Assembly (NCBI RefSeq): GCF_902506195.1
Contig: NZ_LR732817.1
Coordinates: 1,378,909 to 1,442,908, forward strand
DNA length: 64,000 nt
Origin: Citricoccus sp. K5
GTDB lineage: Bacteria; Actinomycetota; Actinomycetes; Actinomycetales; Micrococcaceae
Direction of reading: 5' to 3'
The notes beneath the pieces were generated by a model. It saw only the letters and a program-made list of their open reading frames with translations. It made no database searches and was not told the origin of the DNA. This document shows, in pieces, positions 54,738-63,845 of this stretch (position 1 is the first letter of the stretch; each line of letters starts with the position of its first letter). The position numbers were made by a program, and so were the translations under genes.

Positions 54738-54819
54738 CCGACGGACCGTCCACCGGCCCAGCCCTTGGTTACGCCACCAGCCAAGCGCACCACAGCGTTC
54801 GTGGACAGGCCTAGGATGG

Positions 54820-54838
54820 ATAGGTAAGGCTGACCTCA
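54820..54838. promoter_or_regulatory. DtxR/IdeR iron box candidate in the mpa promoter
   Basis: The 19 bases ATAGGTAAGGCTGACCTCA match the IdeR/DtxR consensus TTAGGTTAGGCTAACCTAA at 15 of 19 positions by my count, with a central AGGTNAG-G-CTNACCT dyad. A TAGGAT -10-like hexamer lies just upstream at 54812-54817. The box ends 35 bases before the GTG of mpa. No other such box was seen in the window. Binding is inferred. Confidence 0.65.
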
Positions 54839-54873
54839 GGTATTCCCCGATCCGGTTGGCCGGAAAGGTATCC

Positions 54874-56685
54874 GTGAGCGATCCCACCACTGCCGGAACC
54901 ACGCCGATGGAGTCCGGCCTGACGCAGCAGCTGGATGCGGCGAAGCGTCGCGCCTCCACCCTCGTGGAGAAGAACCGGACGCTCGAATACCAGTTGCAGA
55001 CCGCCGCACGGAACAACCGCCGCATGGTCGACCTGCTGGAGGAGACCCGGGACGAGATCACCACGCTCAAGGCCGCCCTGGAGCTCGACGGGGAGGCCCC
55101 GTTCGCCTTCGCCACGGTCCTGGAGGTCCACCCGGCCCGCGAGCCCGTCGAGGGCGTCGAGATCGCGGCGACGGTGCAGGGTGGCGTGGACGTCGTCCAC
55201 AACGGCCGCCGGATGCGGGTGACCGCATCCCCCCTGTTGGAGCCCGCCCGGATCACCCCCGGCTCCGACGTGCTGCTGAACGAGTCCCTGACCATCGTGT
55301 CCGTGCTCGAGGCCGAACGGGCCGGGGAGCTGGTCCGGGTGAAGGAGACCTTGGACGACGGCCTGCTGGTCGTCGTCGGGCGCGGAGACGAGGAACGCGT
55401 GGTGCGCCGGTCGCACCGCCTCTCGGGTCAGCGCATCCGCGTCGGGGACGCCGTCACCTATGACTCGCGCACCGGCCAGGCCCTCGATGTCGTCCCGCTG
55501 AACGAGGTCCAGGACGTGGTTCTCGAGGAACTCCCCGATGTCAGCTACGAGGACATCGGGGGCCTGCGGGACCAGATCGAACAGATCCGCGACTCCATCG
55601 AGATGCCCTTCCTGCACCCGGGCCTGTACCGCGAGCACGGGCTCAAGGCCCCCAAGGGCATCCTGCTCTACGGGCCTCCGGGAACCGGCAAGACCCTGAT
55701 CGCCAAGGCCGTGGCCTCCTCCCTGGCCGCACGCTCCACGGAGGAGCGCCGCTCCTACTTCCTCAACATCAAGGGCCCCGAGCTGCTGAACAAGTATGTG
55801 GGGGAGACGGAACGGCACATCCGCACCATCTTCGCCCGCGCCCGCGAGAAGGCCTCCGACGGGTACCCGGTCGTGGTGTTCTTCGACGAGATGGAGTCGC
55901 TGTTCCGCACCCGCGGCTCCGGCGTCTCCTCGGACGTGGAGACCACGATCGTTCCCCAGCTGCTGGCTGAGATCGATGGCGTGGAACGACTGGACAACGT
56001 CATCGTCATCGGCGCCTCGAACCGCGAGGACATGATCGACCCGGCAATCCTCCGCCCCGGCCGCCTGGACGTGAAGATCCGTGTCTCCCGGCCGGACGCC
56101 GAGGGCGCCGCGGACATCTTCGGCAAGTACCTCACCACCGCCCTGCCCCTGCACGCCGCCGAACTGGAGCGTCACGGCAGCCGGGCGGACACCGTCGCTG
56201 CGATGATCGCCACCGTCACGGACCACCTGTTCACCCGGGGCCCGGAGACCGAGTACCTCGAGGTCACCTACGTGGACGGCACCACTCGGACGCTGTACTT
56301 CGCCGATTTCACCTCCGGTGCCGTCATCGCGAACATCGTGGACCGGGCCAAGAAACAGGCCATCAAGGACTACCTGACCGCCGGCTCCACCGAGGAGGCC
56401 AAGGGGCTGCGCACCGCGCACCTGCTGCAGGCCGTCCAGGACGAGTTCACCGAGCAGGAGGATCTCCCGAACAACACCTCACCCGAGGAGTGGGCCCGGG
56501 TCTCCGGTCACCGCGGCGGACGCGTCGCCGGGATCCGGATGCTGGTCCGCCATGGTTCCCCGAATTCCGCAGAGTCCAGGACCTCGAATGAGGGCCCCGG
56601 CAACTCCGGCGCCCCTGGCATCACTGGGATCCCGGTGGGCCCCGGCACGACGACGGCGAGCGCCTCCCAGCAGGGGGCACGGTGA
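54874..56685 (+). CDS. mpa: Proteasome-associated AAA ATPase (Mpa/ARC)
   Basis: This ring ATPase recognises pupylated proteins and unfolds them. The 603-residue protein has an N-terminal coiled coil (residues ~12-70, [20 protein letters not shown]), then two OB-like beta domains (~75-230), and the AAA domain with Walker A GPPGTGKT at 267-274, Walker [12 protein letters not shown] and an arginine-finger region [15 protein letters not shown]. In mycobacteria the C-terminus ends in a Gly-Gln-Tyr-Leu-like tail that docks on the 20S core. Here it ends SASQQGAR, with no such tail. The GTG at 54874 follows GGAAAGG. The dop gene overlaps by 4 bases. It resembles ARC of 20S-less Actinobacteria. Confidence 0.95.
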
Positions 56686-58409
56686 CGCACGTGCCCCCAC
56701 CCCCGGACAGTGCGGCCGGCGTCGGGCCCGTGGTGGCGGACCGGCACGGGCTGGTCCCGGCCGATGCCGTGCTTCCGGCGGGCCGCGACACCGCCGGCTG
56801 GGGAGTTCACCGGGTGATGGGGCTGGAGACCGAGTACGGCGTCCATGCCCCCGCCAACCCCGGTGCCGGCCACTCCGTGCTCTCTGTGGAGGTGGTCAAC
56901 GCCTATGCGGACCTCGTGACGTCCCAGGGCGGGACCGTGGCGGGCACGGAATGGGACTACGGGGAGGAATCCCCGCTCGTGGACGCCCGCGGCTGGCAGC
57001 TGCCCCGCTCGGCGGCCCATCCCACGCAGTTGACGGATCAGCCACTGATGGGCGAGGACGGCAGTCCCGTGCACCTGCTGACGAACCTGGTGCTGCCCAA
57101 CGGGGCCCGCCTCTACGTGGACCATGCCCATCCCGAGTACTCCTCACCCGAGACCACGAACCCGTTGGACGCCATGGTGTGGGACCAGGCGGGTGACTTG
57201 GTGGCGTTGGCCGCCTCGCAGCGCATCGCCGCGGCACCGGGGGAGCCCCAGGTGCTGCTGTACAAGAACAACACGGACAACAAATCGGTGTCCTACGGCG
57301 CCCACGAGAACTACCTGGTGGCCCGCAGCCTGGACTTCGAGGAACTCGCACAGCGCCTGGTGCCGTTCTTCACGGCCCGGCAGGTGATCTGCGGGGCAGG
57401 TCGCGTCGGGCTTGGCGTCACCGGGTCGAGCCCCGGGTTCCAGATCAGCCAGCGGGCGGACTTCTTCGAGGAGCAGGTCGGCCTGGAGACCACAGTGCGG
57501 CGGCCCATCGTGAACACGAGGGACGAGCCGCATGCCGACGCCGACCGGTACCGCCGGCTGCACGTGATCATCGGGGACGCCAACCTCTCGCAGTACGCGA
57601 CCTGGCTGCGCTGCGGGATGACCGCCCTCGTGCTCTCCATGATCGAGCTCGGCACCGCGCCGGAGGTGGAGCTCCTGGACCCCGTGACGGCCCTGCAGCG
57701 GATCAGCCACGATCCCACCCTGCAGGCCACCGTCCCCCTGGTGCGTCCCCTGGAGGGTGCCGTCCCGGGCGGTCGCCGTGAGGCCACCGGGCTGGAGATC
57801 ATGCGCGTCTATCTCGAGGCCGCCGAGCGGCATGTCCACCGTTTCGGCATGGGGGACCAGGCCACGCTGGACGTCCTGAATGCCTGGCGGGAGTCCGTCG
57901 AGACTCTCGGGACTGATCCGGCCGCCATGGCCGACCGGCTGGACTGGGTGGCCAAGTACCAGCTGCTGTCCGGGTACCGGCAGCGCCACGGCCTGGGCTG
58001 GGACGATCCCCGCGTCGGCATGATGGACCTGCAGTATGCGGACCTGCGGCCGGACAAGGGGCTCTACCAGGCGATGCTGCGCCGTGGCTCGCTCCGCAGG
58101 CTGGTGCCGGACGAGAGGATCCGCGACGCCGTCGGCTCGCCTCCGCGGGACACCCGGGCCTGGGCACGCGGCCGGACGGTGGACGTGTTCGGACGCCACG
58201 TGGTCGGAGCCAGTTGGGACACCCTCCTGGTGCGTGAGGACGGCGAGGGCCCCCTCTACCGGTTCCATCAGCGAGAGCCGCTGGCCGGCTCGGCAGAACA
58301 AATGTCCGGGGTGTTCGAGGAGCCGGTGGCGGAGGGTTCCTACGGACGGCTGCTCGAGGCCCTGTCCCGGGTGCAGGCCGGCCCGCAACGGCATCACGGA
58401 CACCCCTGA
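56682..58409 (+). CDS. dop: Pup deamidase/depupylase Dop
   Basis: Dop converts the C-terminal Gln of Pup to Glu and can remove Pup from proteins. The 575-residue protein is of the glutamine-synthetase/Dop/PafA fold. It has [19 protein letters not shown] (ATP/metal glutamate region), [42 protein letters not shown] and [20 protein letters not shown]. The HENYL region binds Pup and metal. The GTG at 56682 gives a ~45-residue N-terminal extension before the fold; an in-frame GTG at 56691 also exists. It overlaps the mpa stop by 4 bases. Pup follows 53 bases later and needs Dop because it ends in Gln. Confidence 0.95.
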
Positions 58410-58462: not shown

Positions 58463-58666
58463 ATGTCACAGCAGTACGGCTCATCCTTCGAGCGCGAGGA
58501 AGACTCCGCCAACGGTCCGGACGCGGATCCCACGCCGGCGCCCACGGGCGCCGCGGGCCAGACCAGCACCGCTGACCTGGACAGTCTGCTCGACGAGATC
58601 GACTCGGTGCTCGAGACGAACGCCGAGGAGTTCGTCAAGGGCTTCGTCCAGAAGGGCGGCCAGTAG
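58463..58666 (+). CDS. pup: Prokaryotic ubiquitin-like protein Pup
   Basis: This 67-residue, intrinsically disordered modifier ends in Gly-Gly-Gln, the form that must be deamidated by Dop before PafA can attach it to lysines. The C-terminal half is [20 protein letters not shown] then [10 protein letters not shown], which forms the Mpa-binding helix. The N-terminal half is acidic with Asp and Pro. The ribosome site TCAGGAG precedes the ATG. In mycobacteria prcB and prcA follow pup; here pafA begins 5 bases after the stop. So a 20S core is not encoded at the expected place. Confidence 0.97.
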
Positions 58667-58671
58667 CCCGC

Positions 58672-60144
58672 ATGGATCGCAGGATCATGGGCGTCGAGAC
58701 CGAATTCGGCGTGCACTACTCCCATCCGGGATCACGGCCGCTGACGCCCGAGGAGGTCGCCCGGTACCTGTTCCGTCCCGTGGTCGAGTGGGGACGCTCC
58801 TCCAACGTGTTCATCAGCAACGGCTCCCGGCTGTATCTGGACGTGGGCTCCCACCCGGAGTACGCCACGGCGGAGTGCTCCACCCTGGATGAGCTCGTGG
58901 CAGTGGACAAGGCCGGAGAACGGGTCATGCAGGAGTTGATCGACGAGGCCACCGGGCACATGAGGGCTGACGGCTTCACCGGGACCATCTACCTGTACAA
59001 GAACAACGCCGACTCCGCGGGCAACTCCTACGGTTCCCACGAGAACTACCTGCTGAACCGCCGGACCGAGTTCCGCCGGCTCTCCGAGGCACTGATCCCC
59101 TTCCTGATCACCCGGCAATTGGTCACCGGGGCGGGCAAGGCCATCGGAGTCCGCACCGGGACCGGCGACGGGGGCCTGCACGGGGCCACTGGGACGGAGG
59201 CACCCATTTCCGGCCCTCCGGAACCCCACTTCGCCTTCTCCCAACGGGCCGACCACGTGATGGAGGGCATCTCCTCCGCCACCACCCGTTCCCGGCCCAT
59301 CATCAACACGCGGGACGAGCCCCACGCGGACGCCGCCGAGTACCGCCGCCTCCACGTGATCGTGGGGGACTCGAACATGTCCGAGACGACCCAACTGGTC
59401 CGGTTCGGGGCCACCGACCTGCTGCTGCGCATGATCGAGGCCGGCCGGACCCTGGGCGACCACCAGTTGGCCAATCCCATCCGGGCCATCCGGCAGGTGT
59501 CCCACGACCTCACCGGTACTGCCGAACTCGAACTGCGCAACGGCGGCCACCGTTCGGCCCTGCAGCTGCAGCGGCACTACCTGGAGCATGCCACCGCCTT
59601 CGTGCGGGAGAACGGGCCCCACCATGATCGGGTTCCGGCCGTGCTCGATCTGTGGGAGCGCACTCTGGATGCCGTGGAGAGCGGCGACTACTCCCAGATC
59701 GACACCGAGATCGACTGGGCCATCAAGCACCGCTTCCTGTCCCGGTACGCCGCGAAGAACTCCCTGGACTGGGATGCGCCACGGATCGCCCAACTCGACC
59801 TCTCCTACCACGACATCACGCCCCAGCGGGGCCTGTTCTCGCTGTTGCAGTCGCGCGGGGCCGCCGCCCGATTCCTGGACGATGCCGCCATCGAGGACGC
59901 AGTCGACAACCCGCCGCCGTCCACCCGGGCCACCCTGCGGGGCCGGTTCATCCGGGCTGCACGGAAGGCTGACCAGACCTATTCGGTCGACTGGACCCAC
60001 CTGAAGCTCAACGACCGACCGCTCCAGGCCATCAGCATCAAGGACCCGTTCCAGACCGAGTCCGATCGGCTCGATGCGCTCATCGGTCATCTGCCTCACG
60101 CGGCTGGCGGGGAGTCCGACTCATCCAGCGTCCATCCAGTCTGA
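58672..60144 (+). CDS. pafA: Pup--protein ligase PafA
   Basis: PafA joins the C-terminal glutamate of deamidated Pup to lysine side chains of target proteins with ATP. The 490-residue protein starts RRIMGVETEFGVHYSHPGSR, followed by NVFISNGSRLYLDVGSHPEY, LYKNNADSAGNSYGSHENYL, FSQRADHVMEG and [19 protein letters not shown]. These are the metal- and ATP-binding stretches shared with Dop, in normal order. The short loop and the length separate it from Dop, and the VGSHPEYATAECS stretch is as in PafA. The ATG at 58672 is directly downstream of pup, so the two are co-transcribed. Confidence 0.96.
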   Translation: MDRRIMGVETEFGVHYSHPGSRPLTPEEVARYLFRPVVEWGRSSNVFISNGSRLYLDVGSHPEYATAECSTLDELVAVDKAGERVMQELIDEATGHMRADGFTGTIYLYKNNADSAGNSYGSHENYLLNRRTEFRRLSEALIPFLITRQLVTGAGKAIGVRTGTGDGGLHGATGTEAPISGPPEPHFAFSQRADHVMEGISSATTRSRPIINTRDEPHADAAEYRRLHVIVGDSNMSETTQLVRFGATDLLLRMIEAGRTLGDHQLANPIRAIRQVSHDLTGTAELELRNGGHRSALQLQRHYLEHATAFVRENGPHHDRVPAVLDLWERTLDAVESGDYSQIDTEIDWAIKHRFLSRYAAKNSLDWDAPRIAQLDLSYHDITPQRGLFSLLQSRGAAARFLDDAAIEDAVDNPPPSTRATLRGRFIRAARKADQTYSVDWTHLKLNDRPLQAISIKDPFQTESDRLDALIGHLPHAAGGESDSSSVHPV

Positions 60145-61760: not shown

Positions 61761-63845
61761 GTGTCCGCCGCATCGCCAGCGCGCTCCACGGAGCGCATCG
61801 TCTCCCTGCTGTGGGTGCTCTTGGCCAGCGGCCGCCGCGGGGTCACCCGCGAGTATCTGATGACCTCCGTGGACGCCTACTCGCTGTCCCCGTCCGCCGC
61901 GGCGTTCGAGAAGATGTTCACCCGTGACAAGGAAGTCCTGAAGGGCATCGGCGTGCCGTTGGAGTCCTTCACGGTCCAGGACGAGTCCGGCTTCGAGTCC
62001 TCGGAACCGGGCGGGGAGACCCGCTACCGGATCGACGAGGACCGGATGTACCTGCCGGCCGTCCCCTTCACCAACGGGGAGCGCCTGGCCCTGATGCGGG
62101 CGGAATCCGCCTGGGCCGGTTCAGAGATCGGCCATGCCGTGGTCCGGGCCCTCGGCCGGGTGGACGCGGGGGAGGACTGGCTCGAGGCCAGGTCCGGCTC
62201 TGACCACGAGGCCTTCGGAGTGCGCCTGGCGGGAGCGGACCGCTACCTGACAGAACTCGGGGACATGGTCCGCGACCAGTCGGTGGTGCGCTTCAGCTAC
62301 CGGACAGTGAATGCCGAGCGCGCCGAGGACAGGACCGTCCGCGTCTGGGCACTGACCAATCCGACGGGCGTCTGGTACCTCGTCGGATGGGACCTCGACC
62401 GGCAGCAACAACGCACCTTCCGGCTGACCCGCATCGAGTCCGAGCCCCGGGTGGCTGCGGCCGGCCCCGGCCATGACCGCGCCCCGCGCCGGCCCGCCGA
62501 CTTCGACGTCCAGGCGGTCCACGACGTGGTTTCCGGGCAGCGGCAGCCGGCGTCCACCGTGCTGCACCTGGCCGCCGGCCGGGCCGTCCACCTGCGGATC
62601 GGTGCCGAGCCCACCGGGAACCCCACCACGGTGCCGAAGGGCTGGGACGAGGTCCGGGTGACCTACACTCGCCCGGCGGAACTGGCGGGGAGCATCGCCG
62701 CGGCGGGACCCCTGGCCAGGGTTCCGGACATCGGGGACCCGCTGCGGGCCGCCGTCGTGACGTTGATCGAGGGCGCCCTGACCTCCCATGCAGCCCCGCA
62801 GCCGGAATACACTCTCAGCACGCCGAAGCGGCGCCGCAACCGCCGGACCGACCGAGACAAGGTCGCTGCCGTGGTGGACGCCATCGGACTGGCGAACCGG
62901 CGTGGCGGGATCAGCCGCACTGAACTGGCCGAGCGGCTCCACGTCGGCGACCGCGAGCTCACCGCCATCCTCGACGAGCTCTGGTTCTGCGGCATGCCCG
63001 AGCGGCAGTTCGCCGGGCAGCAGTTCGAGGTCTTGGAGCAGGACGGCCGGATCCGCATCACCCAGGCCGAACGACTCTCCGGGCCTCTTCGCCTCAGTGT
63101 CCCAGAGGCCGCCGCCCTGGCCATCGGCCTCCGCGCCGCAGCGGGCATCCCGGGACTCACGGACACCGACCGGCAGGACACGGCGTCGGCGCTGGACAAG
63201 ATCCTGGCCGCATCCGGTCCCGAGGTGGAGCAGGCCGGCGCCGGGATTGTGGCCGGATTCGACTTCGGTCCCTTCACTGAGCTGGCCGGCCGGCTGCACG
63301 CCGCCGTCCGCGAACGGACTCTGCTCTCGATCGACTACCACTCCGCGACCAGGGACGAGACCTCCACCCGCACCGTGGAGCCGCTGCGCATCACCAGCGA
63401 GGGGGGCCACGGGTACCTGCAGGCCTGGTGCCGCTCGAGCGACGGCCGGCGGAACTTCCGTCTCGACCGGATCGCCGCCGTCCGCGAGACAGGTGAGACC
63501 TTCGAAACCCGTCACCTGCCTGCGGACGACCGCCTGTTCACCCAGCACGGTGACGAGGCCGCCGTGACCATCCACTTCGCCCACCGCATCCGTGACCTGG
63601 CCGCCGGATTCGATCCGGAGAGGACCGCCGTCCTGGGGGACGGCTCGGTGATCGCGGAGGTCAGGCTCGCCCACCCCGACTATGCCCACGCCCAGGCGGC
63701 CCGCTTCGGAGGGGAGTTCCGGGTGCTGGCCCCCCAGGACCTCGTCGAATCGACAGTCGACTGGCTCCAGCGCGCCCGAACCGGATACGTCACCGGGAAT
63801 TCACCGTCACCGGGTGTCTCCTCGGGCTCCGGCCCAGCGGCGTGA
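61761..63845 (+). CDS. pafBC: PafBC, fused WYL-domain transcriptional regulator
   Basis: The 694-residue protein is the natural fusion of PafB (~1-340) and PafC (~345-694). Each half has an N-terminal helix-turn-helix, then a WYL domain and a WCX domain. The first HTH region is SLLWVLLASGRRGVTREYLM, and its WYL is near VRFSYRTVNAERAEDRTVRV. The second HTH region is ANRRGGISRTELAERLHVGD, and its WYL is near TRTVEPLRITSEGG. In Mycobacterium PafBC is the activator of the RecA/LexA-independent DNA-damage regulon, and fused versions occur in Arthrobacter. The GTG at 61761 is 7 bases after the FKBP stop. The damage signal is not visible from sequence. Confidence 0.92.
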   Translation: MSAASPARSTERIVSLLWVLLASGRRGVTREYLMTSVDAYSLSPSAAAFEKMFTRDKEVLKGIGVPLESFTVQDESGFESSEPGGETRYRIDEDRMYLPAVPFTNGERLALMRAESAWAGSEIGHAVVRALGRVDAGEDWLEARSGSDHEAFGVRLAGADRYLTELGDMVRDQSVVRFSYRTVNAERAEDRTVRVWALTNPTGVWYLVGWDLDRQQQRTFRLTRIESEPRVAAAGPGHDRAPRRPADFDVQAVHDVVSGQRQPASTVLHLAAGRAVHLRIGAEPTGNPTTVPKGWDEVRVTYTRPAELAGSIAAAGPLARVPDIGDPLRAAVVTLIEGALTSHAAPQPEYTLSTPKRRRNRRTDRDKVAAVVDAIGLANRRGGISRTELAERLHVGDRELTAILDELWFCGMPERQFAGQQFEVLEQDGRIRITQAERLSGPLRLSVPEAAALAIGLRAAAGIPGLTDTDRQDTASALDKILAASGPEVEQAGAGIVAGFDFGPFTELAGRLHAAVRERTLLSIDYHSATRDETSTRTVEPLRITSEGGHGYLQAWCRSSDGRRNFRLDRIAAVRETGETFETRHLPADDRLFTQHGDEAAVTIHFAHRIRDLAAGFDPERTAVLGDGSVIAEVRLAHPDYAHAQAARFGGEFRVLAPQDLVESTVDWLQRARTGYVTGNSPSPGVSSGSGPAA

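Follow-up and report, generated by a model that had tools for sequence, protein, structure and literature searches.

In Corynebacterium glutamicum, an actinobacterium without a 20S proteasome, pupylation was reported to be required for the mobilisation of iron from ferritin, with ferritin described as a substrate under iron limitation and the ATPase ARC proposed to disassemble the ferritin cage with no degradation (Kuberl et al. 2016). In Mycobacterium, IdeR has been described as an inducer of the ferritin gene bfrB. To our knowledge, iron is not known to regulate transcription of the pupylation operon in C. glutamicum.

The locus described here lies in a window of 64,000 nucleotides (the whole stretch of DNA that was analysed) from Citricoccus sp. 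K5, in which mpa, dop, pup and pafA form one tight cluster on a single strand, a predicted operon. Its features, all on the forward strand, are:

54812-54817, forward strand: predicted -10 element TAGGAT of the mpa promoter, read from the sequence, with TAGGATGG kept in seven of the eight genomes of the genus, not in G006
54820-54838, forward strand: DtxR/IdeR-type iron box ATAGGTAAGGCTGACCTCA, a 19-bp imperfect palindrome, found by sequence, pattern scan, matrix and simulation
54862-54868, forward strand: predicted ribosome-binding site GGAAAGG of mpa, read from the sequence
54874-56685, forward strand: mpa/ARC, a proteasome-type AAA ATPase with a GTG start (NCBIfam TIGR03689, 738 bits, cut-off 504.75)
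56682-58409, forward strand: dop, depupylase/deamidase, overlapping mpa by 4 bases (TIGR03688, 598 bits, cut-off 492.3)
58463-58666, forward strand: pup, 67 amino acids, with a C-terminal GGQ read from the sequence (PF05639, 70.6 bits, cut-off 27)
58672-60144, forward strand: pafA, Pup ligase (TIGR03686, 677.5 bits, cut-off 551.3)

The nearest named relative of the Mpa of the window is that of C. zhacaiensis, at 96% identity. Elsewhere in the window (61761-63845), PafB and PafC are apparently fused in one frame of 694 amino acids, with HTH_PafC and two WYL stretches.

The box matches the IdeR box TTAGGTTAGGCTAACCTAA at 15 of 19 positions, with mismatches at positions 1, 7, 13 and 18. An earlier note on this DNA had described a 19-base IdeR-like site of just this quality before mpa, adjoined in the manner of a repressor site by a -10-like TAGGAT; its sequence and coordinates were exact, and the box does begin 2 nt past TAGGAT. 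With this spacing, the box overlaps the predicted start point of mpa-dop-pup-pafA, some 7 bases past TAGGAT, and thus occupies the place of a repressor. It lies within a gap of 136 bases between the end of a TrmI-like methyltransferase gene (54737) and the start of mpa (54874), and a divergent neighbour as the target of the box was rejected, since that upstream gene runs in the same direction. Judged by eye, a -10-like hexamer likewise ends two bases ahead of the box at L005 (TACATT) and L007 (TAGATT), making, with mpa, three of the eight own promoters that have this spacing and five without it. A scan for sigma-70-type promoters found none at mpa, where the -10 assignment rests on position and on its conservation within the genus.

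The strength of the mpa site was assessed against the rest of the genome. The plain consensus, scanned across the window with up to 3 mismatches, gave no match because the mpa site carries 4, and a degenerate consensus is needed. Based on TWAGGTWAGSCTWACCTWA with up to 3 mismatches, eight sites were found in the 3.88-Mb genome, including that at mpa, and none with the reversed pattern; over eight genomes of the genus there were 1 to 9 sites each (51 in total, three of them at mpa), and the reversed control again returned 0 in each. Of the 48 matches in these eight genomes that do not lie at mpa, 46 were used to build a matrix, two shifted, overlapping ones being excluded. By this matrix, whose training matches were picked by the consensus itself, the mpa site scored 23.35 and the other seven own sites 23.0 to 34.6 (identical copies left out of the matrix), which makes the mpa box the second weakest of the eight. 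Such a score is expected by chance 0.03 times per 3.88 Mb with independent bases and 0.16 times at 60% G+C, and in 25.6 Mb of simulated first-order Markov sequence none reached it, the maximum being 17.4. The proposal in the earlier note that the site be ranked by matrix against known targets thus came out in its favour, seventh of eight and far above background, and so did its statement that no other such box exists in the window, the runner-up position there scoring 7.93.

The genes beside the other seven own boxes, where the flanking gene was chosen by hand from reading frames and third-position G+C, are clearly iron-related in six cases and encode a CobW_C protein in one:

One box: heme oxygenase; a TIG-domain protein is encoded on the opposite side
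One box: a siderophore-type enzyme resembling diaminobutyrate decarboxylase (389 bits, short of the NCBIfam cut-off of 900), with an aldehyde-dehydrogenase gene on the opposite side
Three boxes: three Peripla_BP_2 binding proteins of iron-siderophore type
One box: siderophore-interacting protein
One box: CobW_C-type protein at L003:314-1369, downstream of one of the stronger boxes, with a zinc metallochaperone GTPase as its best NCBIfam match, below the cut-off

The CobW_C protein aside, to which no metal is assigned, the mpa operon is the sole clear candidate target of such a box beyond iron acquisition. The genome encodes two DtxR-family proteins, of which the one on contig C1 (L010:1306-2016) matches the NCBIfam model of the actinobacterial iron repressor DtxR (NF053665, 302 bits, cut-off 290) and aligns with solved IdeR/DtxR-type repressors, its helix-turn-helix being almost identical to theirs. 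Because a DtxR equivalog is encoded, the other seven boxes mark iron-type genes (one uncertain) and the position is repressor-like, the assignment of the mpa box as a predicted DtxR/IdeR-type operator, well above background, is well supported.

We infer, and as a whole consider likely, that DtxR binds this operator and represses the mpa operon in iron, that the products of the operon unload ferritin, and that DtxR also activates the ferritin gene ftn. With iron present, DtxR would be bound across the start point of mpa-dop-pup-pafA, where it would obstruct RNA polymerase, and the operon would be low; as iron falls, DtxR would leave and the four genes would be expressed. Once induced, Mpa/ARC, Pup and PafA would tag and unfold proteins instead of degrading them, there being no 20S core. 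The proteasome family PF00227 had no match in any of the eight genomes of the genus, while a control search did detect it in 10 of 14 known genomes, which did not include that of C. glutamicum, and Mpa is therefore without a known 20S core to feed, in keeping with the 20S-less actinobacterium on which the earlier note had built its argument. The most likely substrate would be ferritin, from which stored iron would be released, and by analogy with C. glutamicum such a role for the mpa operon is plausible, with some indirect backing from the ftn promoter.

The ferritin gene provided a second place at which this explanation could be read against the sequence:

L127:1477-1989: ftn, ferritin (PF00210)

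Upstream of it, in L127:1402-1440, two weak sites resembling DtxR boxes lie at -75 and -55 relative to the start codon, with scores (7.8 and 6.9) far below those of the uptake-gene boxes; in simulated sequence, sites of at least 6.9 arise about 0.0015 times per 300 bases. The proximal site ends 1 base before a -35-like GTGACA, which is followed after 17 bases by TACTGT and, six bases further on, by ATG, and the promoter is probably leaderless. In C. diphtheriae, DtxR was reported to activate ftn directly, from a promoter whose -35 element lies downstream of DtxR site 3, at a distance of one base, and whose transcript was predicted to have no 5' UTR (J Bacteriol 2026); the layout at Citricoccus ftn matches these DtxR boxes directly upstream of a -35 element. 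DtxR is accordingly predicted, from this layout, to activate ftn via the two weak upstream boxes: DtxR-Fe would turn ftn on, iron shortage would turn ftn off and Mpa and Pup on, and one regulator would thereby drive the storage and the release of ferritin iron in opposite directions.

It could be argued that DtxR does bind the mpa box and that the iron regulation of the operon serves other ends, such as general proteostasis or iron enzymes in starvation, with ferritin not the main substrate. More than 100 pupylated proteins have been reported elsewhere, and G003 and G006 both keep an Mpa gene with no match of the ftn kind, each having a single weaker PF00210 match, which by score is of a second kind. 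Against this, all three genomes with the mpa box carry ftn, and DtxR-like boxes stand at its promoter, the same two in G001 and both in G007, where the distal one has one base changed (score 5.2); ferritin, moreover, is the substrate described for iron limitation in 20S-less C. glutamicum, and we judge this alternative unlikely. Weighing against the explanation by DtxR and ferritin, the mpa box is missing from three other genomes that do have ferritin, G002, G004 and G005, which carry one ftn site each, with a score of 7.4. Also against it, by plain count, unaligned, residue 78 of the Citricoccus ferritin, the position named for C. glutamicum (Lys78), is Val.

The explanation by DtxR and ferritin was also weighed against the history of the box, which is identical in three of the eight genomes of the genus (G000, the genome of the window, G001 and G007), representing three species. 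The check proposed in the earlier note, conservation of the box in related Micrococcaceae, came out mixed and mostly negative: the box is shared unchanged with two further species of the genus, and absent from five of the eight genus genomes and from 140 other genomes of the family. In G002-G005, TAGGATGG is kept, and the 19 bases that follow it agree with the IdeR consensus at no more than 8 or 9 positions. G006 is also without the box; there, in Micrococcus terreus (L014), mpa has a seemingly leaderless promoter (TAGGCT, GGATCC, ATG). In a search near mpa at 80 named loci, allowing up to 5 mismatches, the box was found at one, that of C. zhacaiensis. Outside the genus, a matrix scan of 140 of the 141 family genomes (G133 left out) gave best scores of 12.7, 11.4 and 9.6, none comparable, and at the level of the class, where 80 of 89 genomes have Mpa, the best score among 69 loci scanned, G000 and 10 further ones being excluded, was 4.3. 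These comparison sets overlap, 4 of the 80 named loci being genus members and G015 occurring in two sets. The sequence that scored 12.7 upstream of mpa in G140 shares bases with a ribosome-binding site (GGAGGT) and a TTG start and is not a box in six genus mates of that genome, and those of G120 (11.4; in L274, some 74 bases ahead of the Mpa match) and G027 (9.6) are isolated weak box-like sequences, probably due to chance. On these comparisons of genomes, 20S-less actinobacteria do not generally have the iron box, and it was probably gained recently in one clade, which is the simpler reading because the box is so widely absent.

So narrow a distribution raises the question of whether the sequence does anything at all, since a conserved, initially transcribed region could have drifted to a box-like sequence in one clade, with little or no regulatory effect. 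The restriction of the box to three of the eight genomes would fit such drift, as would the partial retention of the region in boxless relatives (TAGGATGGACGGGCAAGGCCGAC in G002-G005) and the conservation of the entire leader: across the three box species, 1 of 62 positions varies from the -10 element to the start, against 11 of 75 just upstream of this stretch. The box itself varies at 0 of 19 positions. Third codon positions of mpa vary at 99 of 560, a difference short of significance (Fisher p 0.056), and the identity of the box in three species despite that variation speaks against drift; as the whole stretch from the -10 element to the start is conserved, the box does not stand out by its invariance. 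Compared with the orthologous stretch of the relatives, 8 positions differ for each of G002, G004 and G005 and 7 for G003; the consensus base stands on the side of the box clade in 7 of 8 and 6 of 7 cases and on that of the relatives in none, whereas drift would favour no such base. This pattern favours selection for the box, with gain and loss not separable on these differences alone. Together with a matrix score of 23.35, where 0.03 such sites are expected per genome, it renders drift improbable as the origin of the box.

The second DtxR-family protein (PF02742; L009, on the 16-kb contig C2), which has a FeoA domain, is encoded beside an Nramp-like transporter gene and is probably an MntR-like manganese regulator. 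That its presence means that it reads the mpa box and places the operon under manganese control is very improbable, as the boxes mark iron-type genes and no position within the 3.2 kb surrounding the MntR-like gene scored above -1.0, a weak point given that the 3.2 kb surrounding the iron-type dtxR also reached only -2.5.

If operator and ferritin boxes are read together as iron control by DtxR, a bolder extension can be put forward, tentatively and in the knowledge that it may well prove wrong, namely that the two form a two-sided ferritin switch in which DtxR-Fe activates ferritin and represses Pup and ARC, and that pupylation was recently rewired, through point changes beside an existing -10 element, into a dedicated system of iron mobilisation. 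Should control of the operon by the master iron repressor prove true, it would constitute regulatory evidence for an iron-release role in proteasome-less bacteria that is independent of the C. glutamicum mutants. The box clade and its relatives, which share the -10 element and are boxless, amount to a natural comparison with and without the box.

With this box a known regulon would gain a new target, and the new idea is the wiring of the operon, opposed to that of ferritin. In the main text of the genome-wide DtxR study of C. glutamicum, the names pup, mpa and pafA, the gene number cg1691 and the stems pupyl and proteasom are absent and the lone 'arc' is a data archive, a silence that is weak evidence because ftn is also unnamed there. 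Pupylation genes were similarly without a match by gene name in the main text of the C. diphtheriae DtxR literature, titles and opening lines of abstracts on IdeR, mpa, the proteasome and iron contained no report of IdeR control of mpa, and those of the open-access literature none of DtxR, IdeR or iron control of pupylation genes, which is not proof of absence.

With the DtxR regulons of C. glutamicum and C. diphtheriae, as described in these papers, Citricoccus shares the consensus of its 19-bp box, targets among iron-uptake and heme oxygenase genes, and ftn boxes upstream of the promoter; it differs in that its mpa operon is boxed, where pupylation gene names have no match in the main text of the papers. 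Its box has 15 of the 19 positions of the IdeR consensus of Mycobacterium, where ferritin induction was described. Mycobacteria possess a 20S proteasome, whereas Citricoccus has no PF00227 match. Closest is the pupylation- and ARC-dependent release of ferritin iron in C. glutamicum, as reported by Kuberl et al. (2016), with which Citricoccus has in common the lack of a 20S core and the presence of mpa/ARC, dop, pup, pafA and ferritin, and from which it differs in that its operon bears an iron box.
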